Part shown: positions 1-40,493 of the stretch, in pieces
Position numbering within the stretch: position 1 is the stretch's first letter
Layout: each line of letters starts with the position of its first letter
Source: Natronomonas salsuginis
GTDB lineage: Archaea > Halobacteriota > Halobacteria > Halobacteriales > Haloarculaceae
Assembly (NCBI RefSeq): GCF_005239135.1
Contig: NZ_QKNX01000002.1
Coordinates: forward strand, 372,001 to 436,000
DNA: 64,000 bases
Direction: 5' to 3'
Translations under genes and position numbers: made by a program
Notes under the pieces: generated by a model
Told to the model about the DNA's origin: nothing
The model's input: the letters and a program-made list of their open reading frames with translations, nothing else
Databases searched by the model: none

Positions 1-1
1 G

Positions 2-187
2 CAGATCGCCACGCGGACGATCCACGAGTGTCTCGTGTTGCACGGCCACTACGGCTACTCGAAGGACTTCGGCATCGAGAAGCGACTTAGGGACACGATA
101 GGGCTGGAGATCGGCGACGGGACGCCGCACGTTCAGAAGCTGATCGTCGCCCGCGAGACGTTCGGCGCGGAGTATCTCCCCTACTGA
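2..187 (+). CDS. acyl-CoA dehydrogenase, C-terminal fragment (5' end outside window)
   Basis: Only the last 61 codons lie in the window; the reading frame is open from base 2 to a TGA at 185-187. The fragment matches the C-terminal helical domain of acyl-CoA dehydrogenases, with the HGHYGYS segment and the LIVARE segment near the end. FAD-dependent alpha,beta-dehydrogenation of an acyl-CoA is the family role. At the place where medium-chain enzymes carry the catalytic Glu (YEGT) this protein reads GDGT, so Asp replaces Glu. It ends 45 bases before the 3' end of the convergent ligase gene. Confidence 0.85.
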   Translation, partial: QIATRTIHECLVLHGHYGYSKDFGIEKRLRDTIGLEIGDGTPHVQKLIVARETFGAEYLPY

Positions 188-1859: not shown

Positions 1860-2999
1860 TTACAGCAACCGATCGGCGATGATGTTCTTTTGAATCTCGC
1901 TCGTCCCCTCGTAGATCTTCGTGATCCGGGCGTCGCGGTAGTAACGCTCGACGGGGTGGTCGGAGACGTAGCCTGCGCCGCCGTGGACCTGGATCGCCTC
2001 GTCGGTCACGTCGACGGCGTGCTCGGAGGCGAACAGCTTCGCCATGCTGGCGAACTTCGCCGCGAGTTGATCGTGGCCACCATCGACGGTCGAGGCGGCT
2101 CGATACGTGAGCGCGCGCGCCGCCTCGACGTTCGTCGCCATGTCGGCGAGTTTGTGCCGGATCGCCTGGAACTCGCCGATCGGCTGGTCGAACTGCTCGC
2201 GTTCGCCGGCGTACTCGAGCGCCGCGTCGAGGGCGGCCTGGGCGGCCCCGACGGCCTGGGCGGCGACGCGGGTCCGGCCCTGTGCGAAGAAGTCCATCAA
2301 CTGGTAGAACCCCTCGTCGACCTCGCCGACGACGTTCTCCTCGGGGACGCGCACGTCTTCGATGACGACCTCCGCGAGGTCCGACGCCCGGATACCGAGT
2401 TTGTTGTCGATCTTCTCGGTCCGGAAGCCCTCCGTGTCCGTCGGAACGAGAAAGGCGGTGATTCCCTTGTGACCGGCGTCGGGCGTCGTCTTGGCCATCA
2501 ACACGCCCACGTCCGCGACGGTCCCGTTGGTGATCCACATCTTGTTGCCGTTGATCACCCACTCGTCGCCGTCTTTTTCGGCGCGGGTCTCCATCCCGGC
2601 GACGTTGGAGCCGTGCGCCGGTTCGGAGATCGCGGAGTACGAGGCGGCCTCGCCGTCGGCGATGGCTGGCAACCACTCCGATTTCATCCACTCGTCGCCG
2701 TACTCGACGATCATGTTCGTCCCGAAGCCGGCGCTGCCGACGGCGCTGCCGATGCCGGGGTCGGCCCGCCACAACTCCTCGACGACGATGACCGACGAGA
2801 GCAGATCCATGCCCGCACCGCCGTACTTCGCCGGGATGTGCGGCGCGACGAGGTCGAACGCTGCGGCCTCGCGCCGGAGTTCCTCGGGATATTTCGCCGC
2901 CTCGTCGTGTTCTCTCGCGACGGGGCCGATCTCGTTCGCACCGAACTCGCGGACGGCCTGCCGGATCGCGCGGTGCTCGTCCGATAGCTGAAACGCCAT
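1860..2999 (-). CDS. acyl-CoA dehydrogenase
   Basis: A 379-residue flavoprotein that would oxidise an acyl-CoA to the 2-enoyl-CoA, passing electrons to ETF. Visible family features are the N-terminal helical domain, the middle beta domain with NGNKMWITNG, the FAD-contact region [21 protein letters not shown] and the C-terminal [11 protein letters not shown] with the catalytic Glu. An upstream in-frame ATG at 3098 is rejected because a TATA-like element (3021-3030) sits 22-31 bases before 2999 and the residues before MAFQL do not resemble the family. It is encoded on the same strand as the ligase at 233-1759, about 100 bases upstream of that gene, so the two may be used together. Confidence 0.93.
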   Translation of the reverse strand: MAFQLSDEHRAIRQAVREFGANEIGPVAREHDEAAKYPEELRREAAAFDLVAPHIPAKYGGAGMDLLSSVIVVEELWRADPGIGSAVGSAGFGTNMIVEYGDEWMKSEWLPAIADGEAASYSAISEPAHGSNVAGMETRAEKDGDEWVINGNKMWITNGTVADVGVLMAKTTPDAGHKGITAFLVPTDTEGFRTEKIDNKLGIRASDLAEVVIEDVRVPEENVVGEVDEGFYQLMDFFAQGRTRVAAQAVGAAQAALDAALEYAGEREQFDQPIGEFQAIRHKLADMATNVEAARALTYRAASTVDGGHDQLAAKFASMAKLFASEHAVDVTDEAIQVHGGAGYVSDHPVERYYRDARITKIYEGTSEIQKNIIADRLL

Positions 3000-5877: not shown

Positions 5878-6648
5878 TTACTGGGGCCAGTTCGGCTCGC
5901 GCCCCTCGAGTTGCGCGTCGACGCCCTCGGGATGGTCCGGGTCCACCCGGACGCTCTCGACGGCGATCCGTTCGATGTGGTCGCGGCCGCTGCTCGGCGA
6001 CATCTCGAGGCTCGCGTAGATCGACTCCTTCAGTTTCTTCATGATCCGCGGCGGCTTCGACGTCAGGGTGTCGAGGATCGTGTCGACCTCGTCGTCGAGG
6101 TCGTCGGCCGGAACGCAGCGTGTGATGAGCCCCATCTCGGCGGCCTCCTCGGCGCTCAGCGTCTCGCCGAGCATCATGATCTCCAGCGTCTTCCGGAGCC
6201 CGACCATCCGGTGGAGCAGCGGCGGCGAAAAGTGGTTGACCAACCCGAGGTTGATCTCCGGCTGACCCAGGACGGCGTCGTCGGAGGCGACGACGATGTC
6301 GGTGTGCAACGCGAGGTCGAACCCGCCGCCGAGCGCGTAGCCGTCTACTTTCGCGACGGTCGGCTTCCCCAGATCGTGCATCAGCGTGAACAGCTCGTCC
6401 CACCCCTCCGTGAACGGTATGAGCTGATAGTCCATCTCGTAGACCTCCTGGAGATCGCCGCCGGCACAGAAGGCGCGATCCCCCTCGCTCTCGAAGAGGA
6501 CGGCCCGCACCTCGCCGTCGTCGCGATACGCCTCCAGGCGGTCGATGATCTCGGTCTTCGTCGGGAGATCGATCGCGTTGAGCTTCTCGTCGCGTTCGAG
6601 CCGAACGCGGCCGACGCCGTCGGTCACAGTGAAGGATGCGTTCACCAT
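5878..6648 (-). CDS. enoyl-CoA hydratase/isomerase-family protein
   Basis: A 256-residue crotonase-fold protein. The oxyanion-hole segment RAFCAGGDL is present. Of the two hydratase glutamates, the one in GQPE is kept (E131), but the other, usually in GGxE, is Asp111 (GGGFD). The following LVNHFSP segment differs from the usual GxxPGxGG loop. The protein at 38040-38816 has the same length class and the same substitutions, so they form a distinct paralogous pair. Classical hydration of 2-enoyl-CoA is possible, but isomerase or hydrolase activity cannot be excluded. A TATA-like CTATTTGTAG lies about 25-30 bases upstream. Confidence 0.88.
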   Translation of the reverse strand: MVNASFTVTDGVGRVRLERDEKLNAIDLPTKTEIIDRLEAYRDDGEVRAVLFESEGDRAFCAGGDLQEVYEMDYQLIPFTEGWDELFTLMHDLGKPTVAKVDGYALGGGFDLALHTDIVVASDDAVLGQPEINLGLVNHFSPPLLHRMVGLRKTLEIMMLGETLSAEEAAEMGLITRCVPADDLDDEVDTILDTLTSKPPRIMKKLKESIYASLEMSPSSGRDHIERIAVESVRVDPDHPEGVDAQLEGREPNWPQ

Positions 6649-12211: not shown

Positions 12212-13348
12212 CTACTCGACGTGGAACTGGATCGCCACGCCCTGCCCGTAGCCGACGCACATCGTCGAGAGGCCGAGGCCGCCGCCGCGTCGTCCGAGTT
12301 CGTGGATCAGCGTCACCGGGAGGCGGGCACCGGACGCGCCGAGGGGGTGGCCGATCGCGATCGCGCCGCCGTTGACGTTGAACGCGTCGTCGTCGAAGCC
12401 CAGCTCGCGCTGGCAGTACAGCGTCTGGCTGGCGAACGCCTCGTTCAACTCGACGAGATCGTAGTCCTCGGCCGTCGTCCCGGTTCGCTCGTTGAGTTCC
12501 CGGACGGCCGGCACGGGTCCGATTCCCATGATCGTCGGGTCGACGCCCGCGACGCTGTGATCGCCGACGGTCGCCAGCACGTCCAGGCCATGCTCCTCGG
12601 CGAAGGCTCGCGACGTTATCATCACCGCGGCCGCGCCGTCTGAGACCTGCGAGGCGTTGCCGGCGTGGACCGTTCCGCCCTCCTCGAACGCCGGTGGGAG
12701 GTTCGAGAGCTTCTGAGCGGTTGTACCCGGTCGGAGCCCCTCGTCGCGCTCGACGATTCCGTCCCCGGTTTCGATCGGGAGGATCTCGTCGTCGAATCGT
12801 CCCGATTCGGTCGCCTCGACCGCGCGCTGTTGGCTTCTGGCCCCGTACTCGTCTTGGGCCGCCCGCGAGACGTCGAACTCGCGGGCGACCTTCTCGGCGG
12901 TCATCCCCATCGCGAGCGCGTCGGCGTCGTATCGCTCCGCGATGCCCGGAAACGAGCCGATACCGTAGTCGCGCTCGACGCGGGACATGTTCTCGACGCC
13001 GCCCGCAATGATGCACTCGCGTTGGCTGGCGACGATCGAGTCCCTGGCGGTGATGATCGCCTGCGCTGAGGAGCCACAGAGGCGGTCGATCGTCGTCCCC
13101 GGGACGCGCTCGCCGAGGCCGGAGGTGAGCGCGATCACGCGCGCGATGTTGTTCGTCTGCTCTTTGACCTGCTTGGCGCAGCCCCAGACCACGTCGTCGA
13201 CCTCGTCTCCGGAGAGTCCGGTGTCGTCGAGCATCCGGTCGACGAGAGGGACCGAGAGGCGTTCGCTGTGTACGTCCGCGAAGACGCCCCCGTGTTTGCC
13301 CTGCGGCGTTCGAACTGCCTGTACGATTACTGCGTCAGTGGGGCTCAT
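12212..13348 (-). CDS. thiolase (acetyl-CoA C-acyltransferase)
   Basis: A 378-residue thiolase. The nucleophilic Cys91 lies in [11 protein letters not shown], the [10 protein letters not shown] motif with the catalytic His is near residue 335, and the second Cys is in [10 protein letters not shown] near the C-terminus. Degradative 3-ketoacyl-CoA thiolysis is the likely role, since the neighbours are beta-oxidation genes. The start at 13348 (MSPTDAVIV) is set by homology and a CAATATG-like box at 13372-13380. It is the only thiolase in the window. Confidence 0.93.
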
Positions 13349-13666
13349 ATCGTGCCGTCGGCGCGCGGAGTCATATTGTCTTTGGTTCACACGGTCACGA
13401 CGCCGGCGATCGACGCCTCGACACACTGGACGCTGTGATTGCGTACGAATATATCGGATAAAAGGTGCCATACGGCGGAGTTAAATATAACAAGCATAAC
13501 TACGTTAGTTAATTCGGGATAGGTGGGCGTTCCGGCGAGGGATCGCGGGTGCCGACCGATGCGGACATCGATGTTTCGCGGCTTTCAGCGGCGTTCAGTC
13601 GGTTTTAGGTGCTGTCCGAAATACGCGGATAACTACGGGCGAACGGTACGGCGCGCCCAGGGCCGA
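13349..13666. other. intergenic region, no gene seen
   Basis: These 318 bases lie upstream of the thiolase and downstream of the flavin-binding protein. They contain the thiolase promoter and an AT-rich stretch around 13480-13512, including the small palindrome GTTAAATATAAC. I recognise no coding or RNA gene. Confidence 0.5.
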
Positions 13667-21261: not shown

Positions 21262-22029
21262 ATGGGATTCGAACTCATAGAGACGAGCGTCGAGAACGGA
21301 CAGTACCACGTCGACCTCGCGAACCCGGACAAGCCGAACCCGATCAACGACCAGTTGCAGGCCGAGCTGGGCGAGATCATCGACGAGATCGAAGCCGACG
21401 AGGACGCGAAGGTCCTCACGATCGCGAGCGCGGGCAAGCACTTCGCCGTCGGCGCGGACATCGCGCGGATGAACGAGTGGTTCCAAGAGGGCGAGTGGGA
21501 CGAACTCATCACCTTTTTCGGGGCCGGCCAAGAGCTCATGAGCCGGATCGCCGAGCTCGACGTGGTCACGATCGCCGGCATCAACGGCTACGCGCTCGGC
21601 GGCGGGCTGGAACTCGGACTGGCCTGCGATATCCGCATCGCGGGCGAGTCGGCGACCGTCGGGTTCCCCGAAGTCGACCTGGGCATGATCCCCGGCTGGG
21701 GCGGCACCCAGCGGCTGCCCCGCGTGGCAGGCGAGAGCACGGCGAAGGAACTGCTCGTGACGGGCAGACACGTCGACGCCGACGAGGCGTTCGATCTCGG
21801 CATCATCGACCGCGTCGTCGCGGACGACGGGATCGGCGACGAACTGGCCGAGTACCGCGAGACGCTCGCCGAAAAGCCCGATCACATCCTGCCGTACTTA
21901 CTCGACGCCGTCGAGACGGGCGCGGAGAGCCCGATGGAGACCGGGCTCAGCTACGAGCTCTTCTGCAACACCTTCGCGAGCTTCGACGAGGAGACGAGCG
22001 AGCTCATCGCCGAGTTCGCGGACCGATAA
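21262..22029 (+). CDS. enoyl-CoA hydratase
   Basis: A 255-residue crotonase. FAVGADI forms the oxyanion hole, and both hydratase glutamates are present: Glu117 in GGGLELG and Glu137 in GFPE, followed by the canonical GMIPGWGGTQRLPR loop. Syn-hydration of a 2-enoyl-CoA is therefore likely. The FAVGADIARMNEW stretch resembles, from memory, cyclohex-1-ene-1-carboxyl-CoA hydratase BadK, which would fit the BadH-like SDR 4.5 kb away; this needs an alignment. It is convergent with the hydratase at 22052-22873. Confidence 0.9.
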   Translation: MGFELIETSVENGQYHVDLANPDKPNPINDQLQAELGEIIDEIEADEDAKVLTIASAGKHFAVGADIARMNEWFQEGEWDELITFFGAGQELMSRIAELDVVTIAGINGYALGGGLELGLACDIRIAGESATVGFPEVDLGMIPGWGGTQRLPRVAGESTAKELLVTGRHVDADEAFDLGIIDRVVADDGIGDELAEYRETLAEKPDHILPYLLDAVETGAESPMETGLSYELFCNTFASFDEETSELIAEFADR

Positions 22030-22051: not shown

Positions 22052-22873
22052 TCAGGCGTTGTCGCGGTCGGGCGACGAGCCCATGAACGGGAGCTGTTCG
22101 GCCTCCTCTTTCGCCATGAACGCCTCGGCGCGCTCTTGGAACTCCTTCGAGCGCCAGACAGAGGCGGTGAGTTCGCGCTGGGACTCCCAGCCGAGCATCG
22201 CGATGTTGCTCCACTGTTTCATGATGGACTTCATCACGCGGTAAGCCTGCGGGCTGCTGTTCTCGACGACGTCGAGCATGAGCTCGGTCGCCTCGTCCTC
22301 GACGTCGCCATCGTCGACCAGCCGGTTGATGAGGCCGATGTCGTAGGCCTCCTGCCCGTCGATCAGGCGGCCGGTGAGGAGGATCTCTCGGGCGCGGCGC
22401 TCGCCGACCATGAGCGGGAGCATCTGGAGGCCACCGCTGCCGGCCGTCGAGCCGACGAGGACCTCGGGCTGGCCGAACTTCGAGGACTCGCCGGCGACGA
22501 TGAGATCGCAGCCCATGATGAGCTCTTGGCCGCCTGCGACGCAGGGGCCGGTGACGGCGGCGATCGTCGGTTTGCCGGTATCTTTCAGCACCTCGAGGTT
22601 GTCGTAGTAGGCGTTGAGCCAGCGTGTCCCCGTCTCGAGATCGCTGCCGGCGATCTCGCTGAGGTCAGCACCCGAGCAAAAGATGTCGCCGACGCTGCCG
22701 AGGATGATGCCGTCGACCTCGTCGTCGCGGTCGGCCGTGCGGAGCGCCTCGTTCAGATCGAGGATCGCCTCGAGGTCGAGGACGTTGTTCTTTTCTTCGT
22801 TGTCGATGCGGATGTAACAGATCGTCCGGTCGTCCGAATACTCGACGGAGACCTTGTCGTACTCAGCGGCCAT
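22052..22873 (-). CDS. enoyl-CoA hydratase/isomerase-family protein
   Basis: A 273-residue crotonase with FCSGADLSEI, Glu117 in GGQE and Glu137 in GQPE, so both catalytic acids are kept. The loop after them reads VGSTAGSGGLQMLPLMVG; the LPLMVG part recalls ring-opening hydrolases of the 6-oxocyclohexene-carbonyl-CoA type, although the rest is hydratase-like. The start at 22873 (MAAEYD) is favoured by a CTTAAG box about 27 bases upstream. The C-terminus is extended and acidic, ending DRDNA. Confidence 0.87.
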   Translation of the reverse strand: MAAEYDKVSVEYSDDRTICYIRIDNEEKNNVLDLEAILDLNEALRTADRDDEVDGIILGSVGDIFCSGADLSEIAGSDLETGTRWLNAYYDNLEVLKDTGKPTIAAVTGPCVAGGQELIMGCDLIVAGESSKFGQPEVLVGSTAGSGGLQMLPLMVGERRAREILLTGRLIDGQEAYDIGLINRLVDDGDVEDEATELMLDVVENSSPQAYRVMKSIMKQWSNIAMLGWESQRELTASVWRSKEFQERAEAFMAKEEAEQLPFMGSSPDRDNA

Positions 22874-23003
22874 CGTGCGCCAATCGACCGGACAGCTTCT
22901 TAAGTCTTTACAGCGCTCTCGGGGCGAGAGCGATCCGAGGCGACGCCGGCCGAGCGCCACGAACGGGGAGACAATTTAAGACGTCTCCGGGGAAGGTTTG
23001 GAC

Positions 23004-24836: not shown

Positions 24837-25745
24837 ATGACGATCGATCTATCCGGGGTCAACCCGGCGAACGTCGTCCCGATGACCGAAGACGGGGCGG
24901 CGATCGACGAACCGGGACTGAAACGGCACCTCGACGAACTCGCCGCGCTCGACTGCGTCGACGGGATCGTGACCAACGGCCACGCGGGCGAAGTGTACGC
25001 GCTCGACTCAGAGGAGCGCGCCCGCGTCACCGAACTGGCCGACGAGGCGACCGACGACGACACACCCGTCGTCTCCGGCGTGGTCGGCGGCTCAACGGCC
25101 GACGTGATAGCGGCGGCCGATCGGATGGAGGCCGCGGGCGCGGACGGCCTGCTCGTCGTGCCGCCGCACACCCCGATCCACACCCGCGAGGACGCCGCGA
25201 TCGGCTTCTTCGAGGACCTGTCGGCGGGCACCGACCTCCCGCTCGTCATCTTCCAACACCCCCACTGGGCCGGCGGGAACTATCCGCCCGAACTGCTCGG
25301 GAAGCTCGCGCGGATCGACGGCGTCGCCGCGGTCAAAGACGCCGTCTGGGACGTCGATCACTTCCAGGAGGACCTGCGCGCGATCCGGGGCGCGGACGTC
25401 CAACTGCTCGTCGCCAACGACGAACATCTCCTGCCCTCCTTCGCGCTCGGCGGCGACGGAACGATCCTCGAACTCGCCGCGGTGATCCCCGAGCTGATCT
25501 CGGAGTTGTTCGAGGCGGTAGAGGATAGTGATATCGCGCGCGCAAGAGAAGCTTACGACCGGATGGAACCGTTCATCGACGCGATGTACGAGCCGCCGGT
25601 CAGCGATTCCCACACCCGGCTGAAGGTCGCCCTCGAGATCCGGGGAACGATCGACAGCGCCGCGCCGCGACCGCCGACCGCGCCAATCGGCGAGGCGGAG
25701 AAAGCGTCGATCGAGGCCGCGATGGATGCCTCGGGGGTGCTGTAA
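24837..25745 (+). CDS. dihydrodipicolinate synthase/N-acetylneuraminate lyase-family protein
   Basis: A 302-residue TIM-barrel aldolase of the DapA family. The Schiff-base Lys is present (Lys167 in VAAVKDAVWD), and TNGHAGEVYAL stands where the family has GGTTGE. The general acid/base Tyr of the YNVP motif is replaced by Phe139 (FQHPHWAG), so classical pyruvate aldol chemistry may be altered. Its stop overlaps the start of the next gene (TAATG), which implies coupled translation with the maleate-isomerase-like protein. Substrate not recognisable. Confidence 0.87.
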   Translation: MTIDLSGVNPANVVPMTEDGAAIDEPGLKRHLDELAALDCVDGIVTNGHAGEVYALDSEERARVTELADEATDDDTPVVSGVVGGSTADVIAAADRMEAAGADGLLVVPPHTPIHTREDAAIGFFEDLSAGTDLPLVIFQHPHWAGGNYPPELLGKLARIDGVAAVKDAVWDVDHFQEDLRAIRGADVQLLVANDEHLLPSFALGGDGTILELAAVIPELISELFEAVEDSDIARAREAYDRMEPFIDAMYEPPVSDSHTRLKVALEIRGTIDSAAPRPPTAPIGEAEKASIEAAMDASGVL

Positions 25746-26464
25746 TGTACGGCTGGCGCGCGCGGATCGGGCTGTTAGTCCCCTCCTCGAACACGACGAA
25801 CGAACTGGAGTTCCAGCGGGTGCTCCCGGAGGGCGTCAGCCTCCACACCGGCCGGCTCCCGCTCGAAGACGTCAACGCCGACGAACTCGAACGGATGGCG
25901 GGGACCGCCGAGCGCATCGGCGAGCGGCTGAAACACGCCGCCGTCGACGTGATCTGCTACGGCTGCACCACCGGTAGCCTCGTGAAGGGCCACGGCTACG
26001 CCGAGGAGCTCGAATCGACGCTCGCGTCGGTGACCGACGTGCCGGCCGTGGCGACGGCGCTCTCGGTCGAGCGCGCCTTAGCGGCGCTCGACGCCGAGTC
26101 GGTGGCCGTCGTGACGCCCTACATCGACGACATCAACGAGCGCGAGCGGCGGTTCCTCGAGACGGGCGGCTTCGAGGTCGAGTCGATCTCGGGACACGGC
26201 ATCGAACGGAACACACAGATCGGAGCGCTGACGCCCGAGGAGGCCTACCGGCAGGCCGTCGGCGCGATCGAGGAGTCGGGAACCGACGCCGATGCCGTTT
26301 TCATCTCCTGTACGAACTACCGGACCTTCGAGGCGATCGAACGGATCGAGGCCGACACCGGCGTCCCTGTCGTCACCTCGAATCAGGCGACGCTCTGGGA
26401 CGCGATGACCAATCTCGAGATCGATCGGTCGGGGATGCCGCTCGGGCGGCTGTTCGAGACATAA
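25745..26464 (+). CDS. maleate isomerase / Asp-Glu racemase superfamily protein
   Basis: A 239-residue protein with two conserved cysteine sites, Cys74 (CYGCTTGSL) and Cys189 (FISCTNYRT), spaced as in maleate cis-trans isomerase and arylmalonate decarboxylase. The N-terminal IGLLVPSSNTTNE is typical of this group. It could isomerise maleate or a related diacid, or racemise or decarboxylate a substrate made by the coupled DapA-fold protein. Start and previous stop overlap by one base. Confidence 0.87.
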   Translation: MYGWRARIGLLVPSSNTTNELEFQRVLPEGVSLHTGRLPLEDVNADELERMAGTAERIGERLKHAAVDVICYGCTTGSLVKGHGYAEELESTLASVTDVPAVATALSVERALAALDAESVAVVTPYIDDINERERRFLETGGFEVESISGHGIERNTQIGALTPEEAYRQAVGAIEESGTDADAVFISCTNYRTFEAIERIEADTGVPVVTSNQATLWDAMTNLEIDRSGMPLGRLFET

Positions 26465-26507: not shown

Positions 26508-27272
26508 TCAGCACATCGTCAGGCCGCCGCTGACGCTGAGGACCTGCCCGGTAATGTAGTCGGCGTCGCCGCTGGCGAAGAAGGCGACGCCGGCGGCGAT
26601 GTCCTCCGGTTGGGCCTTCCGGCCGAGCGGGACCGCGTTCTCCATGCCCTCGTGGATCTTGCGCGCGATTTCGGTTTCGTGTTGCATCTCCTCGAGCAGC
26701 GGCGTATCGGTCGGCCCTGGCGCGACGACGTTACACTGGACATCGAAGCGGGCCAACTCGCGCGCGAGCGTCTTTGTGAAGCCGATGACGCCGGCTTTCG
26801 TCCCGGCGTAGACGGCCTCGCCCGTGCTGCCGACGCGGCCCGCATCGGAGGAGATCCCGATGATCTTGCCGCTCTCTTGGTCTATCATGTAATCGGTGAC
26901 CGCGCGGGCGGAGTTGACCTGCCCCTTGTAGTTGATGTCGATGATCCGGTCCCACACCTCGGGATCGTTGTCCTTGAACAGCTCGACGCGGTCCCAGCCG
27001 GCGTTGTTGACCAGGATGTCGATGCGTCCCTGTTCGTCGACGATATCGTCGACGGTCGACTGCATGTTATCGAGATCGGTGACATCTGCCGGGGCTGCGA
27101 TCGCGTCGTGACCCTCCTCGCGGAGCTCCGCGGCCGTCGTTTCCGCGCGTTCGGCGTCGATGTCGTTGATCGCGACCGTCGCGCCCTCTTCGGCCAGCCG
27201 TGTGGCGATTCCGCGCCCGATACCTCGTCCCGAACCGGTGACTAACGCAACGTTATCGCTAATGCCTCGCAT
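26508..27272 (-). CDS. SDR resembling 2-hydroxycyclohexanecarboxyl-CoA dehydrogenase (BadH-like)
   Basis: A 254-residue SDR with TGSGRGIG (12-19) and catalytic Ser142, Tyr155 and Lys159. Several diagnostic stretches agree with my memory of BadH from Rhodopseudomonas: NNAGWD, SDAGRVGSTGEAVYAGTK, VVAPGPTDTPLL, and the C-terminal YITGQVLSVSGGLTM. BadH oxidises the ring hydroxyl of 2-hydroxycyclohexanecarboxyl-CoA with NAD. The start at 27272 is fixed by a CTATTTATC box at 27295-27303. The gene is divergent from the Liv transporter operon, which could import the substrate. General 3-oxoacyl reductase function remains possible. Confidence 0.88.
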   Translation of the reverse strand: MRGISDNVALVTGSGRGIGRGIATRLAEEGATVAINDIDAERAETTAAELREEGHDAIAAPADVTDLDNMQSTVDDIVDEQGRIDILVNNAGWDRVELFKDNDPEVWDRIIDINYKGQVNSARAVTDYMIDQESGKIIGISSDAGRVGSTGEAVYAGTKAGVIGFTKTLARELARFDVQCNVVAPGPTDTPLLEEMQHETEIARKIHEGMENAVPLGRKAQPEDIAAGVAFFASGDADYITGQVLSVSGGLTMC

Positions 27273-27395: not shown

Positions 27396-28259
27396 ATGCC
27401 GGTTACAGCAGGCGAGATACTGGTTCAACTCCTCAATGGTATATCCATTGGCCTGTCGATCGCGTTGATCGCTGCAGGCCTCACACTCATATTCGGTGTC
27501 ATGGACATCGTCAACTTCGCCCACGGTGAGTTCTACATGCTCGGTGCGTACGGGACCATCGTGATACTCCCGCTCGTTGGGAACTTCTGGCTCGGGCTCG
27601 TGCTCGCGGCCCTCGGCGTCGGGCTGTTCGGGGCGGCGCTCGAACGGCTCACGCTCAAACCGATCCGGGAACGGGATCCGCTCCAGTCGCTCATCGTCAC
27701 GTTCGGATTCATTCTGGTGTTACAACAGCTCATCCTTGAGATCTTCGGGGGCTCCCCCCGAGGGATGCCGACGCCGATCAGCGGCACGATCAACGTCGCC
27801 GGCATCACCTACCCGTGGGTCCGGATCGCCGCGATCGTCGGGGCGCTCGCCGTGCTCGCGGCGCTCTTCGTGTTCCTCTCGAAGACCCGCCTCGGCATCC
27901 ATATGCGCGCTTCCGCACAGGACCTCGACGCCGCCCGGACGCTGGGCGTTCGATCCGACCGAGTGTTCTCGACGAGTTTCGCGATCAGTACCGCGCTGGC
28001 CGCGCTCGCGGCCGGCTTCATGGCACCCATCCGCGGCGTCTCCCCGACGATGGGCGTCGGCGTCATCATCGACGCGTTCATCGTCGTCATCGTCGGCGGA
28101 CTGGGAAGCGTCGTGGGCGCGATCGTGGCGGCGCTGATCATCGGGCTCACGCAGTCGATGACCGTGCTCGTGTTGCCGCCGTACATGTCCCAGATCATCG
28201 CGCTCGGACTGTTGGTGATCGTCCTGCTTGTCAAACCGACCGGTCTCTTCGGAGAGTGA
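27396..28259 (+). CDS. livH: branched-chain amino acid-type ABC transporter permease LivH
   Basis: A 287-residue integral membrane protein with about eight hydrophobic segments. The GLTLIFGVMDIVNFAHGEFYMLGAY segment near residue 27 and GLGSVVGAIVAALIIGLTQ near residue 230 are typical of LivH permeases. It forms the translocation channel with LivM. Liv-type systems import branched-chain amino acids, but also aromatic and alicyclic acids or urea. It is followed at 4 bases by livM. Confidence 0.93.
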   Translation: MPVTAGEILVQLLNGISIGLSIALIAAGLTLIFGVMDIVNFAHGEFYMLGAYGTIVILPLVGNFWLGLVLAALGVGLFGAALERLTLKPIRERDPLQSLIVTFGFILVLQQLILEIFGGSPRGMPTPISGTINVAGITYPWVRIAAIVGALAVLAALFVFLSKTRLGIHMRASAQDLDAARTLGVRSDRVFSTSFAISTALAALAAGFMAPIRGVSPTMGVGVIIDAFIVVIVGGLGSVVGAIVAALIIGLTQSMTVLVLPPYMSQIIALGLLVIVLLVKPTGLFGE

Positions 28260-28263
28260 TACC

Positions 28264-29274
28264 ATGTCAATGAAACAACGTCTCTCGGCGAAAGTTGCAG
28301 CGGTGAAAAACAACCCCCAACGGCTCGCGGTCTACCTGCTCCTCGGGGTGTTGTTCGTCTTCGTGTTGCCGGCCGTACTGCCCAACTCCCGGATCAATCT
28401 CCTGAACCGGATGCTCATCTGGGGACTGTTCGCGATGGCGTACGACTTCATGTACGGATACAGCGGCATGGTGAGTTTCGGTCACGCCGCCCTGTTCGGT
28501 CTCGGGGGGTACTCCGTCGCGATTCCGCTGAAGGAGTTCGGTGAGGTCAGCATCTGGGCGCTGCTCATCCTGGCGATGGTGGTCTCCGGTGTGTACGCGC
28601 TGATCGTCGGTACGATCGCGATCCGAACGCGAGAGGTGTACTTCGCGATCCTGACGCTCGCGTTCGGCGAAATGATCTACATCCTCGTGCTCAACTTTAC
28701 TGATTTCACGGGCGGCTTCGACGGGATGACCATCCTCCTGCCACAGTTGACTGTCATCCCCGGCGTCATGCAGGTCTCGCTGTACGAGGCGGGCACGTAC
28801 TACTACATGCTCATCGCCATCGTCGCGGCGGCGTACTTCATGCTGCGCCGACTGGCGAACTCGCCGATGGGAACGATCCTGCGCGGGGTTCGCGAGAACA
28901 TCGAACGGCTGGAGTACATCGGCATCGACGAGCGCCGATATCGGATCGGGGCGTTCAGCATCTCCGGAGCGGTTTCGGGACTCGCCGGCGCGCTGTACGC
29001 GATCGATCTGAGTTTCATCGGCGCGGAGGCGCTCGAGGTCATCGTCTCCGGTGAGGTCATCGTCTGGACGATCCTCGGCGGCAAGGGGACGCTGCTCGGG
29101 CCGCTGTTCGGCGGCGCGGCCGTCTACGCCATCGAGGAGATCGCGAGCGGCATCATCACGTGGTGGCTCATCCCGGTCGGGATCCTGTTCATCCTGATCG
29201 TGATCTTCCTGCCGGACGGCGTGGCGGGACTGGTCAAGAGCGGTCTCAAGCGCATCCGAAACACCGACGCCTGA
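28264..29274 (+). CDS. livM: branched-chain amino acid-type ABC transporter permease LivM
   Basis: A 336-residue membrane protein with about nine to ten hydrophobic segments and the LivM hallmark YDFMYGYSGMVSFGHAALFGLGGY near residue 60. GEVIVWTILGGKGTLLGP lies in the later part. It partners LivH in the permease. The ATG at 28264 begins four bases after the livH stop, so the genes are co-transcribed and probably translationally coupled. Confidence 0.93.
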   Translation: MSMKQRLSAKVAAVKNNPQRLAVYLLLGVLFVFVLPAVLPNSRINLLNRMLIWGLFAMAYDFMYGYSGMVSFGHAALFGLGGYSVAIPLKEFGEVSIWALLILAMVVSGVYALIVGTIAIRTREVYFAILTLAFGEMIYILVLNFTDFTGGFDGMTILLPQLTVIPGVMQVSLYEAGTYYYMLIAIVAAAYFMLRRLANSPMGTILRGVRENIERLEYIGIDERRYRIGAFSISGAVSGLAGALYAIDLSFIGAEALEVIVSGEVIVWTILGGKGTLLGPLFGGAAVYAIEEIASGIITWWLIPVGILFILIVIFLPDGVAGLVKSGLKRIRNTDA

Positions 29275-29335
29275 ACCGGCGTTTCGTCGCTAAACAGCGC
29301 TTTTTCGGCCGTCGATCGGCGATCCATGCATGTAG

Positions 29336-29343
29336 TTTTATAT
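29336..29343 (+). promoter_or_regulatory. TATA-like promoter of livG
   Basis: TTTTATAT, 25-32 bases before the ATG at 29368. It suggests that the ATPase genes can be transcribed separately from the permease genes, and it decides the livG start over an ATG at 29326. Confidence 0.6.
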
Positions 29344-29367
29344 CACTCCCCCTCATTCGGGAGAGAC

Positions 29368-30117
29368 ATGAGCGCGGTACTGCGCACGGAAGGCTTAACA
29401 AAAGAGTTCGGCGGACTGACCGCGGTCGAGGATGTTGACTTCGAACTCGAGGAGAACGAACTCCACTGCATCATCGGCCCCAACGGGGCTGGAAAAACGA
29501 CGTTTTTCAACCTCATTACCGGTGGGTTGGAACCGACTGAAGGATCCGTCTATCTCAGCGGCGAGGACATCGTCGGAAAGGAGCCGAGGGAAATCGTCGA
29601 TCAGGGGCTCGCACGTTCGTTCCAGATCTCGCAGCTGTTCAACGGACTGACCGTGATGGAGAACATCCGCCTCGCGCTGTTGGGTGCCAGAGAGCGCGGC
29701 TCGATCTTCAAGTTCCTGTTTTCGAACATCGAGAGCGACGAGGAACTGAAAGCGGAGGCGTACGATATCGTCGAGCGCGTACGCCTCGGAGAGGAGGCCG
29801 ACAAGGAGGTCAGTTCGCTCGCACACGGCAAAAAGCGGAACCTGGAGATCGGCGTCGCGCTGAGTACGGGCGCGGATGTCCTGCTCCTCGACGAGCCGGC
29901 GGCCGGACTGACGACGGCGGAGACCGAGGAGCTGATGGACCTCATCCGGGAGATCGGAAAGGATCGGACGATCCTGCTCGTCGAGCACGACATGAATCTC
30001 GTGATGGGGCTCGCGGAGACGATCACCGTGCTGCACAACGGTCGCGTGCTCGCGCAGGGGTCGCCGGATACGATCCGGAGCGACGAGACGGTCAAGGAGG
30101 TGTATCTCGGTGAGTAA
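29368..30117 (+). CDS. livG: ABC transporter ATPase LivG
   Basis: A 249-residue nucleotide-binding subunit. Walker A is GPNGAGKTT (near residue 38), the Q-loop region follows, the signature motif is the degenerate LAHGKKRNLE form usual for LivG, Walker B is VLLLDEPAAGL and the switch His lies in LLVEHDMNLV. It powers the Liv-type importer at the inner face of the membrane. Its 3' end overlaps the GTG start of livF by eight bases. Confidence 0.94.
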   Translation: MSAVLRTEGLTKEFGGLTAVEDVDFELEENELHCIIGPNGAGKTTFFNLITGGLEPTEGSVYLSGEDIVGKEPREIVDQGLARSFQISQLFNGLTVMENIRLALLGARERGSIFKFLFSNIESDEELKAEAYDIVERVRLGEEADKEVSSLAHGKKRNLEIGVALSTGADVLLLDEPAAGLTTAETEELMDLIREIGKDRTILLVEHDMNLVMGLAETITVLHNGRVLAQGSPDTIRSDETVKEVYLGE

Positions 30118-30811
30118 CGATTTCCTCGACGTCAACTCGATCAACACCTACTACGGGGACGCACACGTCATTCACGACCTCTCGCTGGAGGTCGGGGAGG
30201 GCGAGGTCGTCGGGCTCGTAGGGCGAAACGGTGCCGGCAAGACGACGACGCTCAAATCGATCATCGGACTCCAGCCGCCACGAACCGGAGCGATCTCCTT
30301 CAAGGGCGAACAGATCAGTGGGATGGCCCCCGAGGACATCTACCGCAGGGGGATCGGCTACATCGCGGAGGACCGCAGCATCTTCCCGAAGCTCACGGTC
30401 CGCGAGAACCTGATCGTTGGATTGAGCTCGGGACAGGATCCCGAGTTCGACGAGATCTTCGACTACTTCCCGCGTCTCGAGGAGCGGTTGGACCAGAAGG
30501 CGGGCACCCTCTCCGGTGGCGAACAGCAGATGCTCGCGATCGGTCGGGTGCTGGTCTCGGATCCGGAGGTCCTGCTGATCGACGAGCCGACGGAGGGGCT
30601 GATGCCCACGCTCGTCGACAAGATCTCGGAGGTCGTCGCCCAGCTCAACGAGGACGGACAGACGATCCTCCTCGTCGAGCAGAACATCGATCTCGTCCTC
30701 AACAACGCCGACCGGGTCTACGTGATGAGCCACGGCGAGCGGCAGTTCACCGGAACGCCCGAGGAGCTGCGCGAGAACGAAGAGATCATCGACGAACACC
30801 TCGCGGTGTAA
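30110..30811 (+). CDS. livF: ABC transporter ATPase LivF
   Basis: A 233-residue ATPase with Walker A GRNGAGKTT, signature LSGGEQQML, Walker B VLLIDEPTEGL and the switch region ILLVEQNIDL, in which Gln replaces the usual His-preceding pattern as is normal in LivF. The start is GTG at 30110, inside the end of livG. It pairs with LivG as the heterodimeric motor. Confidence 0.93.
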   Translation: MSNDFLDVNSINTYYGDAHVIHDLSLEVGEGEVVGLVGRNGAGKTTTLKSIIGLQPPRTGAISFKGEQISGMAPEDIYRRGIGYIAEDRSIFPKLTVRENLIVGLSSGQDPEFDEIFDYFPRLEERLDQKAGTLSGGEQQMLAIGRVLVSDPEVLLIDEPTEGLMPTLVDKISEVVAQLNEDGQTILLVEQNIDLVLNNADRVYVMSHGERQFTGTPEELRENEEIIDEHLAV

Positions 30812-30975
30812 CCGCCGTCGTACTCGTCGGTGCCGCCGTGATCGCACGCTTTGAATTATAAACCGACCTCTTTGACCGACGAATCGGGTGATTGAGGCCG
30901 CGCCGCCGCGTTATTTTCACAGAACGGTCGTCTTTTGCGAAATGTTTAAGCATAGTTAATGACTAAAGAGGTACG

Positions 30976-32295
30976 ATGCGTCCTACAAACCGTCGAACAT
31001 TCTTGAAAGGAGCAGGCGCGGCAGGAGCGATTACCCTGGCCGGCTGTACCGGTAACGGCAACGGTGGCAACGGCAACGGTGGCAACGGCAACGGTGGCAA
31101 CGGCAACGGTGGCGGTAACGGCAACGGTGGCGGCGACGGCGGCGACACCATCCACATCGGGTTCGTCGAATCGCTGACCGGCCCGTTCGCTGCGCCCGGC
31201 CAACGGCGCCTGTGGGCGACGGAAGCCGCGGTCGACAAGGTAAACGAGGAAGGCGGGATCAACGGCCGACAGATCGAACTGCACGTCGAGGACACCGAGA
31301 CGGACCCCGGCGTCGCGACGACGAAGGCCCAGCGACTGATCCAAAACGAGAACATCGAGCTGATGTGCGGGACGTTCTCGAGCAGTGTCTGTCTGGCACT
31401 CGCGCCGCTGTGTGCCCGAAACGAGATCCCGTACTCGGCCGGCTACTGTGCGACGGACCGACTGACCGGCGCGGACTGCACGCCGTACTCGTTCCGCGGC
31501 ACACGGAACAACCCACCGAGCCAGTGGGCAGGGCTCGGCCCCTACCTCACCGACGAGGGCTACGAGTCTGCATCCATGCTGTACGCCGACTACGCGTGGG
31601 GCCAGTCCGAGCTCAACTACTTCCAGCAGTACTTCGGTGAGGAGGCGGGCGGGGAGATTCTGAGCGAAGTGCCGGTACCGGCCGGGACCTCCGACTTCAG
31701 TCAGTACCTGACGAACCTCGACACGTCCGCTGACATCATGGTGTTCATCCAGGCCGGCGGCGACTCGATCAATCTCCTGCAGGATGTCGGGTCGTTCGGT
31801 CTACAAGAGGAGTTCGATCGCATCGTCACCGTCGGTGCCGGTGTCGGTGAGTTCCTCGAAGAGGGCGGCGTCGACGAAGAGGTCGCCGACTCGCTGTACG
31901 GCATCAACTACTACCCGAAGGTCTTGTCCGGCCCCCTCGACAACCAGGCGAACCGCGAGTTCCACGAGATCTACTCGGAGTACGCCGACGAACCTGCCCC
32001 GACGCGATCGAGCTCGACGGGCTGGGAGGCCATCTGGCTGTTCAAGGCGATCGCCGAGGAGATCGACTACACCGGACCGAGCCAGTCGCGAGACTTCGTC
32101 GACACGTGGCGCGGCTTCGAAATGGAAGCGTCGCTCGAGTTCCCGCAGGGCGACAAGTACTACCGAGAGGACAACCAGACGATGCTCGAGCAGTACGTCT
32201 TCGACAACGACGGCTACACCGAGGAGATCGTCGGTACGATCCCGATCGACGTTGCCGAAGGGACCGAGATCACCTGCGAAGGCGACTGGATCTAA
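30976..32295 (+). CDS. livK: ABC transporter substrate-binding lipoprotein, Liv type
   Basis: A 439-residue periplasmic-binding-fold protein (Peripla_BP_6 type). The N-terminus has a Tat signal (RRTFLKG, residues 6-12) and a lipobox LAGC with Cys24, followed by a flexible NGNGG repeat linker (residues about 27-52). The mature domain begins at about residue 57 with IHIGFVESLTGPFA. It would be exported folded through Tat and tethered by a lipid to the outer face of the membrane to deliver substrate to LivHM. A TTTAAG box lies about 25-31 bases upstream. Confidence 0.92.
   Translation: MRPTNRRTFLKGAGAAGAITLAGCTGNGNGGNGNGGNGNGGNGNGGGNGNGGGDGGDTIHIGFVESLTGPFAAPGQRRLWATEAAVDKVNEEGGINGRQIELHVEDTETDPGVATTKAQRLIQNENIELMCGTFSSSVCLALAPLCARNEIPYSAGYCATDRLTGADCTPYSFRGTRNNPPSQWAGLGPYLTDEGYESASMLYADYAWGQSELNYFQQYFGEEAGGEILSEVPVPAGTSDFSQYLTNLDTSADIMVFIQAGGDSINLLQDVGSFGLQEEFDRIVTVGAGVGEFLEEGGVDEEVADSLYGINYYPKVLSGPLDNQANREFHEIYSEYADEPAPTRSSSTGWEAIWLFKAIAEEIDYTGPSQSRDFVDTWRGFEMEASLEFPQGDKYYREDNQTMLEQYVFDNDGYTEEIVGTIPIDVAEGTEITCEGDWI
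31054..31131 (+). repeat. 15-base tandem repeat encoding NGNGG linker
   Basis: Unit AACGGCAACGGTGGC occurs four times in tandem (31054-31113) and once more after a GGT insertion (31117-31131). The repeat encodes the linker behind the lipid-modified Cys of the binding protein. Near-identity of the units at DNA level suggests recent expansion and possible length variation between strains. Confidence 0.85.
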
Positions 32296-32410: not shown

Positions 32411-34063
32411 ATGCGACCCGATCGCTGGTCCGAGCAGCTACACGAACAGTTTACCGAAGCGGGACAGTGGGTCGACCGGACGCTTCTCGAGTACGTCGAG
32501 ACGGCCGTCGAGTCGACGCCGGATCGAACCGCCATCGTCGACAGACGCGGGACACACACCTACGTGGAGATGGTCGAAGCCGCCGACGAACTCGCTCAAG
32601 GACTCGCCACGATGGGGGTCGGCACCGACGACGTGATCGCCTCACAGATTCCGAACCGCGCCGAGGGGGCGATTCTCCACCTCGCCGCGCTCAAACTCGG
32701 CGCGGTGTACAACCCGATCGTCTCGATCTATCGCGAGAGCGAGGTCGGCTACATGATCGAGAAGTTGGAAACCACGGTGTACGCGGCTCCGTCGTCGTTC
32801 AGCGGCTTCGAGTACGTCGAGATGGGCCTCGATCTGGCCGACGAACACGACTCGCTCGACCACGTCATCAGCGTCGGCGGCGAGATCGACGACGGCCGCG
32901 TGACGAGCTTCGAGTCGATCCAAGAGCGCGGCGGCGATGCCGACTCGATCGCCGCGTCCGACGCACTCGGACCGAACGATCTCGCGCTCATCCAGTTTAC
33001 CTCGGGGACGACCGGCCAGCCGAAGGCGGCGATGCACACCGAGAACACGCTGTTGGCCTCCCAGAACGGCCAGATCGACCGACTCGGCCTCGAATCCGAC
33101 GACGTCGTGTTCACCCCGTCGCCGATCGGCCACCTCACGGGGATCCAACACGGCTACCGGCTCGCGTTCATGCTGGGGACGACCTGCGTCTTCCAGGAGA
33201 AGTGGGACGCCGAAACCGGGCTCGAGTGGATCGAGTCGGAGGCCTGTACGTACATGGCCGGCGCGACCCCATTCGTCCGTGATCTCTCGCTGCACGAGGA
33301 GTTCGACGCCTACGACACGTCGAGTCTCCGGCGCATCATGACCGCCGGCGCGCCGTGTCCGGCGGAAGTGGTCCGACAGGCTCACGAGAACTTCGAGAAC
33401 GTGACCGTCTGTCGCGGCTGGGGGCAAACCGAGAACACGCTGCCGACGGTCAACCCGCCGGACGCGCCCGCGGAGAAGCTGGAGACGACCGACGGCAAGC
33501 CCTACGGCGGTATGGAGGTCCGGATCAGAAAGCCCGGCGAGTTGGAGGACGCCCTCCCCGGCGAGGAGGGCGAACTGCAGGTCAGAGGGCCGTTCCTCTT
33601 TTTGGGTTACCTCGAGGATCCCGAACGGACCGCCGCCTCGTTCACCGACGACGAGTGGTTCAAGACGGGCGACAAGGCGATCGTCGACGACGACGGCTAC
33701 GTGATGATCAAGGGACGGATCAAGGACATCATCATCCGCGGCGGGGAGAACATTCCCGTCCGGGAGATCGAGGAGTACCTTCACCAGCACCCGAAGGTCG
33801 CCGACGGCGCGATCGTCGCGATGCCGGACGAACGGCTGCAAGAGCGCGGCTGTGCGTACGTCCTCTCGACGGATCCGGACGATCCGCTGACGTTCGAGGA
33901 GATGGTCGAGTACCTCAAATCGCAGGGCATCGCGACCCAGAAGCTCCCAGAGCGGCTCGAGATCGTCGACGAGCTCCCGATGACCGCGAGCGGGAAGGTC
34001 CAGCGGTACAAGCTCCGCGAGGATATCGCCGACAAACTGGGCGTCGATCCGGTCGTCCGATAG
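32411..34063 (+). CDS. AMP-forming acyl-CoA ligase
   Basis: A 550-residue ANL-family ligase, more distant from the pair at 233 and 9440. Motifs: [11 protein letters not shown] near residue 197, [11 protein letters not shown] in the middle, [21 protein letters not shown] at the hinge and [13 protein letters not shown] at the end with the catalytic Lys. It resembles cyclohexanecarboxylate- and medium-chain-CoA ligases in general layout, which fits a role at the entry of the pathway after import by the Liv system just upstream. The ATG at 32411 follows TTTTAGT at 32382-32388; a much longer frame that overlaps livK is rejected. Confidence 0.92.
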
Positions 34064-34101: not shown

Positions 34102-34122
34102 CCCGAAGTCCCAACGTGTGGT

Positions 34123-35253
34123 ATGACTGTTCCACTCGACGGAGAGTATCGCGCAGTGCGGCGGACAGCCCGCGATTTCGCGGAGAACGAGCTCCGACCG
34201 ATCGTCGACGAATGGGAGGACAAAGGCGAATTCCCGAAGGAGGTCCTGAAGGGCCTCGCTGAGTACGACATGCGCGGCGCGCAGGTCGACTTCGAGTACG
34301 GCGGCGGCGGCATGGACATGCTGAGCCACGCCGTCGTCATGGAGGAGGTATCGAAGGTGTGGCCATCCGCAGGCATGAAACTCGACGAGGGGCTGCTCCG
34401 GTTCATTCGCCTGTTCGGCACCGACGAGCAGAAAGCGCGCTGGCTCCCGGGGCTGTGTTCGGGCGAACTCGTCGACGCGATCTCGCTGTCGGAGCCCGCG
34501 AACGGCTCCGACCTGGCCGGCATCTCCTCGACCGCCGAGCGGGAGGGCGACGGTTACGTCCTCAACGGCAACAAGATGTGGGTCACCGGGGCCGGCGCGG
34601 CCGATCTCGTCGCGGTGTTGGTGAAGACCGACCCCGGCGAGCGCTACCGCGGCATGAGCGTCTTCGTCGTTCCGACCGACAGCGAAGGGTTCGACGTGCA
34701 GGAACCCGAGGACCTGATGGGCTATCGGGCGTCGAACACCCACGAGGTCGTGTTGAACGACGTGTTCGTCCCCGAGGAGAACCTACTCGGCGAGGAGAAC
34801 AAGGGATTCTACCACACGATGGAGATGCTCGAGGAGAACCGGATCGCCGTCGCCGCGCGCGGGCTCGGCGTCGCGGCCGGCGCTTACGAGGCCGCGAAAC
34901 GCTACGTCGACGAGCGCGAGCAGTTCGACCAGAAGATCTCGGAGTTCCAAGCCATCCGCCACAAGGTCGCGGACATGGCCGTGGAGGTCGAAAACTGTAA
35001 GCACCTCGTCTACAACGCCGCGAAGCAGTGCGACGCCGGCGAGCCCTGCGAGACGGAGGCCTCGATGGCGAAGCTGTACACCTCCGAAGCGGCCCGCAGG
35101 GTGTCGAACCAGGCGGTCCAGGTCCACGGCGGCTACGGCTACACTCGCGATTTCCCCGTCGAGATGCTCTATCGGGACGCGAAGGGGCTCGAGATCTACG
35201 AGGGAACGAGCGAGATCCAGCGAAACATCCTCGCGGACAAAGTGCTCGACTGA
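34123..35253 (+). CDS. acyl-CoA dehydrogenase
   Basis: A 376-residue FAD enzyme, the close paralogue of the one at 11012-12145. [42 protein letters not shown] and [11 protein letters not shown] (catalytic Glu) are all present. It follows the ligase at 32411 by 59 bases and precedes an SDR, so ligase, dehydrogenase and SDR may serve successive steps. Electrons would go to an ETF encoded elsewhere. Confidence 0.93.
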
Positions 35254-38039: not shown

Positions 38040-38816
38040 ATGGTTAACGCCACATTCAGCGTCGCCGACGGTATCGGACGAATTAGCATCGAACGCGAAG
38101 AGGCGCTCAACTCGATCGATCTCGAGACGAAGGAGGCGATCATCGAGCGACTGTCAGACTACGAGGACGATGAGGACGTACGAGCCGTCCTCTTCGAAAC
38201 CGAGGGCGACCGCGCGTTCACGGCGGGCGGCGATCTCAAGGAGGTCGTCGATCTGGACTTCGAGCTCGAACCGTTCACCGAGAGCTGGGATCGGTTGTTC
38301 ACGCGGATGGTCACCCTCGACACGCCGACAGTCGCGAAGGTCGACGGGTTCACCTTCGGCGGCGGCTTCGATCTCGTGTTGCACACCGACATCGTCGTCG
38401 CCGCGGAGGACGTACAGATCGGCCAACCCGAGGTGAACCTCGGTATCGTCAACCACTTCAGCCCCGCCCTGCTGCCGGGGACCGTCGGGCTGAACAAGAC
38501 GCTCGATCTGCTCTTGACCGGCGAGCCGATCACCGGAAAGCGCGCGGCCGAACTGGGGCTCGTCGCCCGCGCCGTCCCGGCCGATGAACTCGACGAGGAG
38601 GTCGAGTCGGTGCTCTCAGCGCTGAAGTCGCACAGCCCCGAGATCCTCTCGCGGATCAAGTCTGTCGTCTACGAGGGCACGGAGATGTCGCCGTCGGCAG
38701 CGCTGACCCACGCCGAGCGGGTCGCCCACGAGACGGGCGAAGGGCCGTGGATGCGTGAGGGCGTCGAGGCGCAACTGGAAAAACGCGATCCCGAATGGGC
38801 CTACGATGGGGAGTAA
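38040..38816 (+). CDS. enoyl-CoA hydratase/isomerase-family protein
   Basis: A 258-residue crotonase, full-length paralogue of the protein at 5878-6648. As in that protein, the first catalytic position is Asp111 (GGGFD), the second is Glu131 (GQPE), and the loop reads IVNHFSP in place of the glycine-rich hydratase loop. The oxyanion segment is RAFTAGGDL. The shared deviations mark a subfamily whose reaction may differ from simple hydration. Confidence 0.88.
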   Translation: MVNATFSVADGIGRISIEREEALNSIDLETKEAIIERLSDYEDDEDVRAVLFETEGDRAFTAGGDLKEVVDLDFELEPFTESWDRLFTRMVTLDTPTVAKVDGFTFGGGFDLVLHTDIVVAAEDVQIGQPEVNLGIVNHFSPALLPGTVGLNKTLDLLLTGEPITGKRAAELGLVARAVPADELDEEVESVLSALKSHSPEILSRIKSVVYEGTEMSPSAALTHAERVAHETGEGPWMREGVEAQLEKRDPEWAYDGE

Positions 38817-38894: not shown

Positions 38895-40493
38895 ATGAAC
38901 GTCCCAAACGTCACTCCGTCCTTTCTGGATCGTGCCGAGGAGTACTACTCGGACGTGGTCGGCGTCGTCGCCGACGACGGCACCGAGTACACTTACGGCG
39001 AGCTCACCGAACGCGTCAATCGGCTCTCGAACGCCCTCGCCGAGCTGGGCGTCGAACAGGGCGACCGGGTCGCGGCGATCAGCCCAAACACCCACTGGTA
39101 CATCGAGACGGTGTTCGCGACCCAACAGCTCGGTGCCGTCGTCGCGCCGTTGAACTACCGACTCGTTCCGGACGACTACGAGTATCTGCTCTCCGACAGC
39201 GGGGCGACGGTCGCAATGGTCGACTACGAGTACGCCGACCTGATCGCCGACATCCGCGAAGACGTGCCGACCGACGCGTTCGTCTGCTACGAGGCGGACC
39301 GGGCCGACGGCGAGTGGCTCGACTACGAGGCGCTCCTCGCGGAGCACTCCCCCGAACCGCCCGAGCGCCCCGATATCGCCGAGACGGACCCCGCCGCGAT
39401 CAACTACACCTCGGGGACGACCGGCGATCCGAAGGGCGTCGTCCGCTCGCACCGCACCGATTTCTTGAACGCCGTCAACCACGCGTACAACGCCGAGTTC
39501 AAGGACGACGGCGTGTATCTGTGGACGCTCCCGATGTTCCACGTCCACGGCTGGGGCGCGCTGTACATGGTCACCGGGACCGGCGGGACGCACGTCTGTC
39601 TGCGGAGTTTCTCCGCGGAGAAGGCCTTCGAGCGAATCCGCGAGTACGACGTCTCGTACCTGTCGGGCGCGCCGACCGTGTTGAACCGGCTGCTCGAACA
39701 CAACCGCGAGACGGACGATCTCGTCTCCTCGGGGGCGAACCCGGTGACGATCTCGACCGCCGGTGCGCCCCCGCCGGCCGCGACCATCGAGGCCGTCGAG
39801 GACGACTTCGGCTGGGAGCTGTTCCACTTCTTCGGCCACACCGAGTCCGGCCCGTACACGACGAGTCACTCGCCGCGTCGGATCAAAGAGAAGGGTCGAA
39901 TGCAGATCAAGCCGAAACAGGGTATCCCCGCGATGGGCAACTACATGCGCGTCGTCGACGAGCACGGCGAGGACGTCCCCCGCGACGACGAGACGATGGG
40001 CGAGGTCATCCTGAAGGGCAATCTCGTCTTCGATCGCTACTGGAACAAACCCGAGGAGACTAAGCAGGCGTTCAACGATCGCGTCGAGGGGTGGTTCCAC
40101 AGCGGCGATCTCGGCACCGTCGACGAGAACGGCTTCGTGACGATCAAAGACCGAAAGAAGGACGTGATCATCTCCGGCGGCGAGAACATCTCCTCGATCG
40201 AACTCGAGGACGCGATCTACGACCTCGACGGCGTCTCGAAGGCGACGGTCATCCCCGTTCCCCACGAGGAGTGGGGCGAGACGCCGAAGGCGCTCATCGT
40301 CCTCCAACCGGGCGCGGATCTCACCGAGGAGGCCGTGATCGCCCACTGTAAGTCAGTGCTCGCGAGCTACAAAGCGCCCACCGCGGTCGAGTTCGTCGAG
40401 GAACTGCCGACGACCGCGACCGGCAAGGTCCAAAAGCACGTTCTGCGCCAGCGCGAGTGGGACGACGAGGACCGCATGATCGGCGGCGGATAA
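38895..40493 (+). CDS. AMP-forming acyl-CoA ligase
   Basis: A 532-residue ANL ligase with NYTSGTTGDPKGV near residue 172, FFGHTESGPYT in the middle, VEGWFHSGDLGTVDENGF at the hinge and TATGKVQKHVLR at the C-terminus. It belongs to the medium-chain/fatty acid ligase branch (also called AlkK-like). It follows the crotonase by 78 bases on the same strand. A carnitine- or crotonobetaine-CoA ligase role is thinkable given CaiB-like neighbours but cannot be concluded. Confidence 0.92.
   Translation: MNVPNVTPSFLDRAEEYYSDVVGVVADDGTEYTYGELTERVNRLSNALAELGVEQGDRVAAISPNTHWYIETVFATQQLGAVVAPLNYRLVPDDYEYLLSDSGATVAMVDYEYADLIADIREDVPTDAFVCYEADRADGEWLDYEALLAEHSPEPPERPDIAETDPAAINYTSGTTGDPKGVVRSHRTDFLNAVNHAYNAEFKDDGVYLWTLPMFHVHGWGALYMVTGTGGTHVCLRSFSAEKAFERIREYDVSYLSGAPTVLNRLLEHNRETDDLVSSGANPVTISTAGAPPPAATIEAVEDDFGWELFHFFGHTESGPYTTSHSPRRIKEKGRMQIKPKQGIPAMGNYMRVVDEHGEDVPRDDETMGEVILKGNLVFDRYWNKPEETKQAFNDRVEGWFHSGDLGTVDENGFVTIKDRKKDVIISGGENISSIELEDAIYDLDGVSKATVIPVPHEEWGETPKALIVLQPGADLTEEAVIAHCKSVLASYKAPTAVEFVEELPTTATGKVQKHVLRQREWDDEDRMIGGG

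Follow-up and report, generated by a model that had tools for sequence, protein, structure and literature searches.

Genes in the window

The window, that is, the whole stretch of DNA analyzed here, comprises 64,000 nucleotides of the genome of the haloarchaeon Natronomonas salsuginis (2.90 Mb in 12 contigs, 99.94% complete). On its minus strand lies an open reading frame with an ATG at position 27272 and a stop at 26508, which encodes an SDR protein of 254 amino acids (P0001); no coding was seen on the plus strand of the same segment (26508–27272). The initial annotation had recognized this gene and had ascribed to its product four non-generic stretches of the BadH type, NNAGWD, SSDAGRVGSTGEAVYA, APGPTDTPLL and TGQVLSVSGGLTM. 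The gene is real, and all four stretches are found in the protein. An alignment of 15 homologues, which takes in bacterial SDRs encoded beside BadI, has invariant columns at N89-N90-A91-G92-W93-D94, S142-D143-A144, R146-V147-G148-S149, P185-G186-P187 and S248-G249-G250-L251-T252-M253. The Ser-Tyr-Lys catalytic residues (S142-Y155-K159) and an acidic residue after strand 2 (D37) are likewise invariant in the 15 sequences, and D37 would confer a preference for NAD. Convergent with the SDR gene is an arylmalonate decarboxylase/EutA-like gene (25745–26464), the product of which is 63% identical to that of a gene in the haloarchaeal cluster L022.

As also described initially, a Liv-type ABC importer (livH-livM-livG-livF-livK; 27396–32295, plus strand) diverges from the SDR gene, with the start of livH at 27396, 123 bp away; livH and livK match Liv/urea-type models, and livM, livG and livF were named by gene order and blast. 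Directly after livK is a gene for an AliA-like acyl-CoA ligase of 550 amino acids (32411–34063, plus strand). It is the best match in the genome to TIGR03208 (454 bits vs. 236 for the next; cut-off, 792), although the FadK model NF004758 scores higher (477 bits). In a quick tree, the comparators of which come almost only from BadH-like loci, it joins ligases of BadI loci with E. coli FadK outside (SH-aLRT 98), a position that favors the AliA-like identity. Two other acyl-CoA ligases have similar affinities: lig3 (38895–40493, plus strand) is sister to ligases encoded directly upstream of BadH-BadI in five loci (L039, L040, L043, L100, L109), and lig1 (233–1759, minus strand) is sister to the ligase of the BadI locus L056 and 67–70% identical to the SDR-adjacent ligase of three haloarchaeal loci (L024, L044, L045).

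The left edge of the window (1–187, plus strand) is the 3′ end of a gene for an AliB-like acyl-CoA dehydrogenase, the whole of which (G000:C2:371051-372187) lies mostly outside. Its product is the best match in the genome to TIGR03207, which is also its own best model (289.6 bits; next model, 239.4; cut-off, 575), and in a quick tree, again with comparators almost only from BadH-like loci, it joins acyl-CoA dehydrogenases of BadI loci (SH-aLRT 100), such as those encoded between BadI and AliA in Acinetobacter. This gene and the AliA-like ligase gene were missing from the list in the initial annotation. Further genes for acyl-CoA degradation are acd1 (1860–2999, minus strand, start approximate), an acyl-CoA dehydrogenase gene with 83% identity to a counterpart in L044 and 77% to one in L025; acd3 (34102–35253, plus strand), which matches generic acyl-CoA dehydrogenase models and is 78.7% identical to a counterpart in L022; and a thiolase gene (12212–13471, minus strand), which is above the cut-off of TIGR01930 and 75.5% identical to the thiolase of the L045 module.

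Relationship of the SDR to BadH and FabG

Among 213 NCBIfam models, the best for the SDR is TIGR03206 (BadH; 277.6 bits), and FabG comes second (244.1 bits). The equivalog cut-off of TIGR03206 (431.2 bits) is not reached, and the SDRs of bacterial BadI loci likewise remain below it (278–428 bits). With a profile built from 35 bacterial homologues only, the locus of each holding a BadI-like gene, P0001 scores 362.8 bits, whereas E. coli FabG reaches 223.6 and no other SDR exceeds 229. In a tree of 78 rows, a BadH-like clade including the SDR is set apart from FabG and other SDRs by a well-supported split (98/96). This tree lacks BadH of Rhodopseudomonas palustris and is anchored by BadI linkage, as in locus L043, where badI scores 474 bits and exceeds its cut-off, and by the finding that in Rhodococcus BCP1 both cyclohexanecarboxylate and cyclopentanecarboxylate induce badH, the neighbor of a badI homologue (PMC5906575).

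Profile and tree thus agree that the SDR very probably belongs to the BadH-like clade rather than to FabG, and a placement with FabG, which had been set beforehand as the refuting outcome, was not seen. It might still be argued that the protein is a common reductase of the FabG or PHA type, considering that FabG is the runner-up model and that PGAP names the orthologues "3-oxoacyl-ACP reductase family protein" or "glucose 1-dehydrogenase." This is very improbable: the protein lies 139 bits above E. coli FabG in the BadI-linked profile, its clade is separate in the tree, and FabG-like paralogues are encoded elsewhere in the same genome (L002, L003, L005). Assignment of the SDR to FabG was rejected on the basis of profile and tree. 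Like BadH of the R. palustris bad/ali system, the SDR has TIGR03206 as its best model, shares the motifs and catalytic residues and falls in a clade with BadI-adjacent SDRs; unlike it, the SDR is haloarchaeal, scores below the cut-off and has no BadI to accompany it.

The haloarchaeal rows of the tree form one clade (100/98) amid bacterial groups, some of which are BadI-linked, and this nesting suggests a single acquisition by haloarchaea, probably in the direction from bacteria. BadH-like SDRs are also present in many bacterial loci having no BadI nearby, one of them with terpene-type genes, so the clade may include enzymes for other substrates.

Gene neighborhoods in Halobacteria

An orthologue of the SDR was found in 11 of 391 Halobacteria genomes, with identities of 60–85% besides the window's own. 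Its gene occurs in two settings. In the first (L024, L044, L045), a lig1-type ligase, the SDR, an amidohydrolase and an AliB-like dehydrogenase are encoded together, and in genome G057 these four share a single stretch with a thiolase and a Liv importer. In the second (L022, L023, L025, L046, L047, L048, L051), the SDR gene adjoins a gene for an enoyl-CoA hydratase, ech3. The N. salsuginis genome has parts of both settings scattered across about 35 kb. The nearest relative of its SDR (85%), that of L022 in genome G046, belongs to the second setting, and 11 genes of L022 have counterparts in the window in a different order. In G046, ech3 and an AliA-like ligase are present, and no match was found to the AliB-like dehydrogenase or to the amidohydrolase. 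Among bacteria, a Desulfobacteraceae cluster (L056) is similar to the first setting in having a ligase, a BadH-like SDR and an AliB-like gene, with BadI in the place that the amidohydrolase takes in haloarchaea. A BadH-BadI pair was also seen in L080, a contig assigned to a Klebsiella pneumoniae MAG, possibly by mis-binning.

Close relatives of the AliB-like dehydrogenase occur in 5 of the 391 genomes, all five of which have the SDR (hypergeometric, 6e-9); the two genes are physically linked in three of the five and are non-adjacent in G124 and in the window genome. As for ech3, 6 of the 11 Halobacteria genomes bearing it have the SDR (4e-8).

Hydratases and the absence of BadI

The window gene ech3 (22052–22876, minus strand), for which we propose the role of BadK, encodes a protein that keeps both catalytic Glu residues (GGQELIMGCD, FGQPE), and its orthologues adjoin the SDR gene in all seven loci of the second setting, with 82% identity in L022. 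Its neighbor ech2 (21262–22029, plus strand), which had been likened to BadK initially, is a hydratase of the ordinary kind: the two catalytic Glu residues are present, and it is 74.5% identical to the hydratase encoded next to the AliB-like gene in L024.

BadI, the ring-opening hydrolase, had been described as not obvious, and indeed no match to TIGR03210 above its cut-off exists in the window genome or in the 10 other SDR-bearing haloarchaea. The best match to the BadI model in the genome (228 bits) was considered as BadI and rejected, as it groups with MenB in the tree. The three crotonases offered as candidates in the initial annotation (5878, 22052 and 38040) must also be set aside: all five crotonases of the window fall outside the BadI/MenB clade (100/99), and the residues of the one at 22052 are those of a hydratase. 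At the catalytic positions, the proteins at 5878 and 38040 have Asp and Glu, and that at 42906 has Asp and Tyr. The two crotonases at 5878–6648 and 38040–38816, in which Asp replaces the first catalytic Glu, are 58% identical to each other and have no close relative among the fetched loci.

A possible pathway for alicyclic acids

What does the SDR oxidize? The substrate is most likely, in our estimate somewhat better than an even chance, a ring-borne 3-hydroxyacyl-CoA such as 2-hydroxycyclohexanecarboxyl-CoA, and the enzyme would be NAD-dependent. An outline of the corresponding pathway is as follows: the Liv importer would take up the acid, which the AliA-like ligase or lig1 would convert to its CoA ester. 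The AliB-like dehydrogenase would then produce the 1-ene, ech3 or ech2 would add water, and the SDR would form the 2-oxo ester. Finally, a hydrolase other than BadI would open the ring, and ordinary beta-oxidation enzymes would complete the degradation. The archaeal pathway for cyclohexanecarboxylate or naphthenic acids envisaged in the initial annotation becomes more likely because of the AliA-like ligase, the co-occurrence of the AliB-like gene with the SDR and the conserved hydratase partner; the part of it that fails is the ring opening, with BadI absent and the crotonase candidates rejected. Further points stand against a ring pathway: the SDR, the AliA-like ligase and the AliB-like dehydrogenase are all below the equivalog cut-offs of BadH, AliA and AliB, respectively, FadK exceeds AliA among the NCBIfam models for the ligase, and G046 has no AliB-like match.

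Alternatively, the SDR may oxidize an open-chain, alpha-branched 3-hydroxyacyl-CoA that is methyl-branched, terpenoid or derived from an amino acid, in which case a thiolase would finish the process and no ring would be opened. The lack of BadI in the window genome and in the ten other haloarchaea fits this explanation, as do the presence of thiolases alongside the SDR in L045, L025 and L022 and the bacterial BadH-like loci without BadI, one of which has an AtuA-type gene. However, the AliB-like gene follows the SDR across Halobacteria and groups with BadI-adjacent dehydrogenases, and, among the sequences compared, the window ligases are closest to those of BadI loci. We regard oxidation of an open-chain substrate as rather improbable.

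The favored alicyclic pathway resembles the chcpca cluster of Rhodococcus aetherivorans BCP1 (PMC5906575), in which badH occurs with AliA-, AliB- and hydratase-type genes in an aerobically growing organism, but that cluster has a badI homologue and the haloarchaeon has none. In a literature search of open-licence papers, we found no link of haloarchaea to the breakdown of cyclohexanecarboxylate or naphthenic acids. Activity of the module on alicyclic acids would be relevant to what becomes of naphthenic acids in the saline waters of oil fields and evaporites. Because BadI is missing, a defined and testable question arises: which enzyme opens the ring?

Candidate enzymes for ring opening

Hydrolases of the alpha/beta type were rejected as a common ring opener, since those encoded in the vicinity of the SDR across loci are mostly unrelated or distant. 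Another candidate for the replacement of BadI is an amidohydrolase (PF04909; 8373–9269, minus strand), identified by a Pfam match and by its recurrence with the SDR gene. Its close orthologues occur in 4 of the 391 Halobacteria genomes, all four having the SDR, and in three haloarchaea (L024, L044, L045) the gene occurs with both the SDR and the AliB-like gene. Among bacteria, a homologue is encoded next to a BadH-like gene in Dehalococcoidia (L083) and in two Acidobacteria (L087, L110); in L082 such genes lie near each other, and BadI was not found in any of these four loci. The lack of overlap with BadI (0/4) is expected by chance with a probability of about 0.11, or 1 in 9, as calculated by hand from the presence of BadI in 35 of 84 loci, and is not significant alone.

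Two reports on amidohydrolases of other systems favor such a role. According to a review, the amidohydrolase ThnN is the best candidate for the first ring opening of naphthalene (PMC12016498), and bamU, an amidohydrolase gene of Geobacter metallireducens, changes 10-fold on benzoate (PMC1924859). The thn operon of culture N47 (PMC12016498) is similar to the haloarchaeal module in having an amidohydrolase gene among beta-oxidation genes and in the proposal that its product opens the ring, but its substrate is bicyclic and degraded anaerobically, and ThnN, a member of the amidohydrolase superfamily and itself a candidate, is likened here by description, not by sequence homology. The same question about the ring opener stands for ThnN in anaerobic naphthalene degradation.

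Several features argue against the candidate. In metal-dependent PF04909 proteins, strand 1 is followed by an HxH motif and strand 8 carries an Asp; HxH is absent from the window protein (AIDTMSR) and from all eight homologues, and WATNGL of the window protein has Asn at the position of the expected Asp on the last strand. The structural neighbors of its predicted fold (pLDDT 87.5) include decarboxylases and the LigJ hydratase, so the protein could equally be a decarboxylase or a hydratase. In addition, it was not found in G046, the bearer of the nearest SDR. Opening of the 2-oxo ring by this protein, which is a special case of the alicyclic pathway and fully compatible with it, is a tentative and on balance doubtful proposal. 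With slightly more reserve still, one may envisage that haloarchaea share with a few bacteria a module for ring acids, and that a PF04909 protein devoid of the usual metal ligands replaces BadI there in opening the ring of 2-oxocycloalkanecarboxyl-CoA.

In the Acidobacterial locus L110 (4580–5827, 9887–11579), the BadH-like and amidohydrolase genes lie about 4 kb from a gene resembling that for benzoyl-CoA reductase subunit C, which is the best model for this neighbor at 334.7 bits, under its cut-off.
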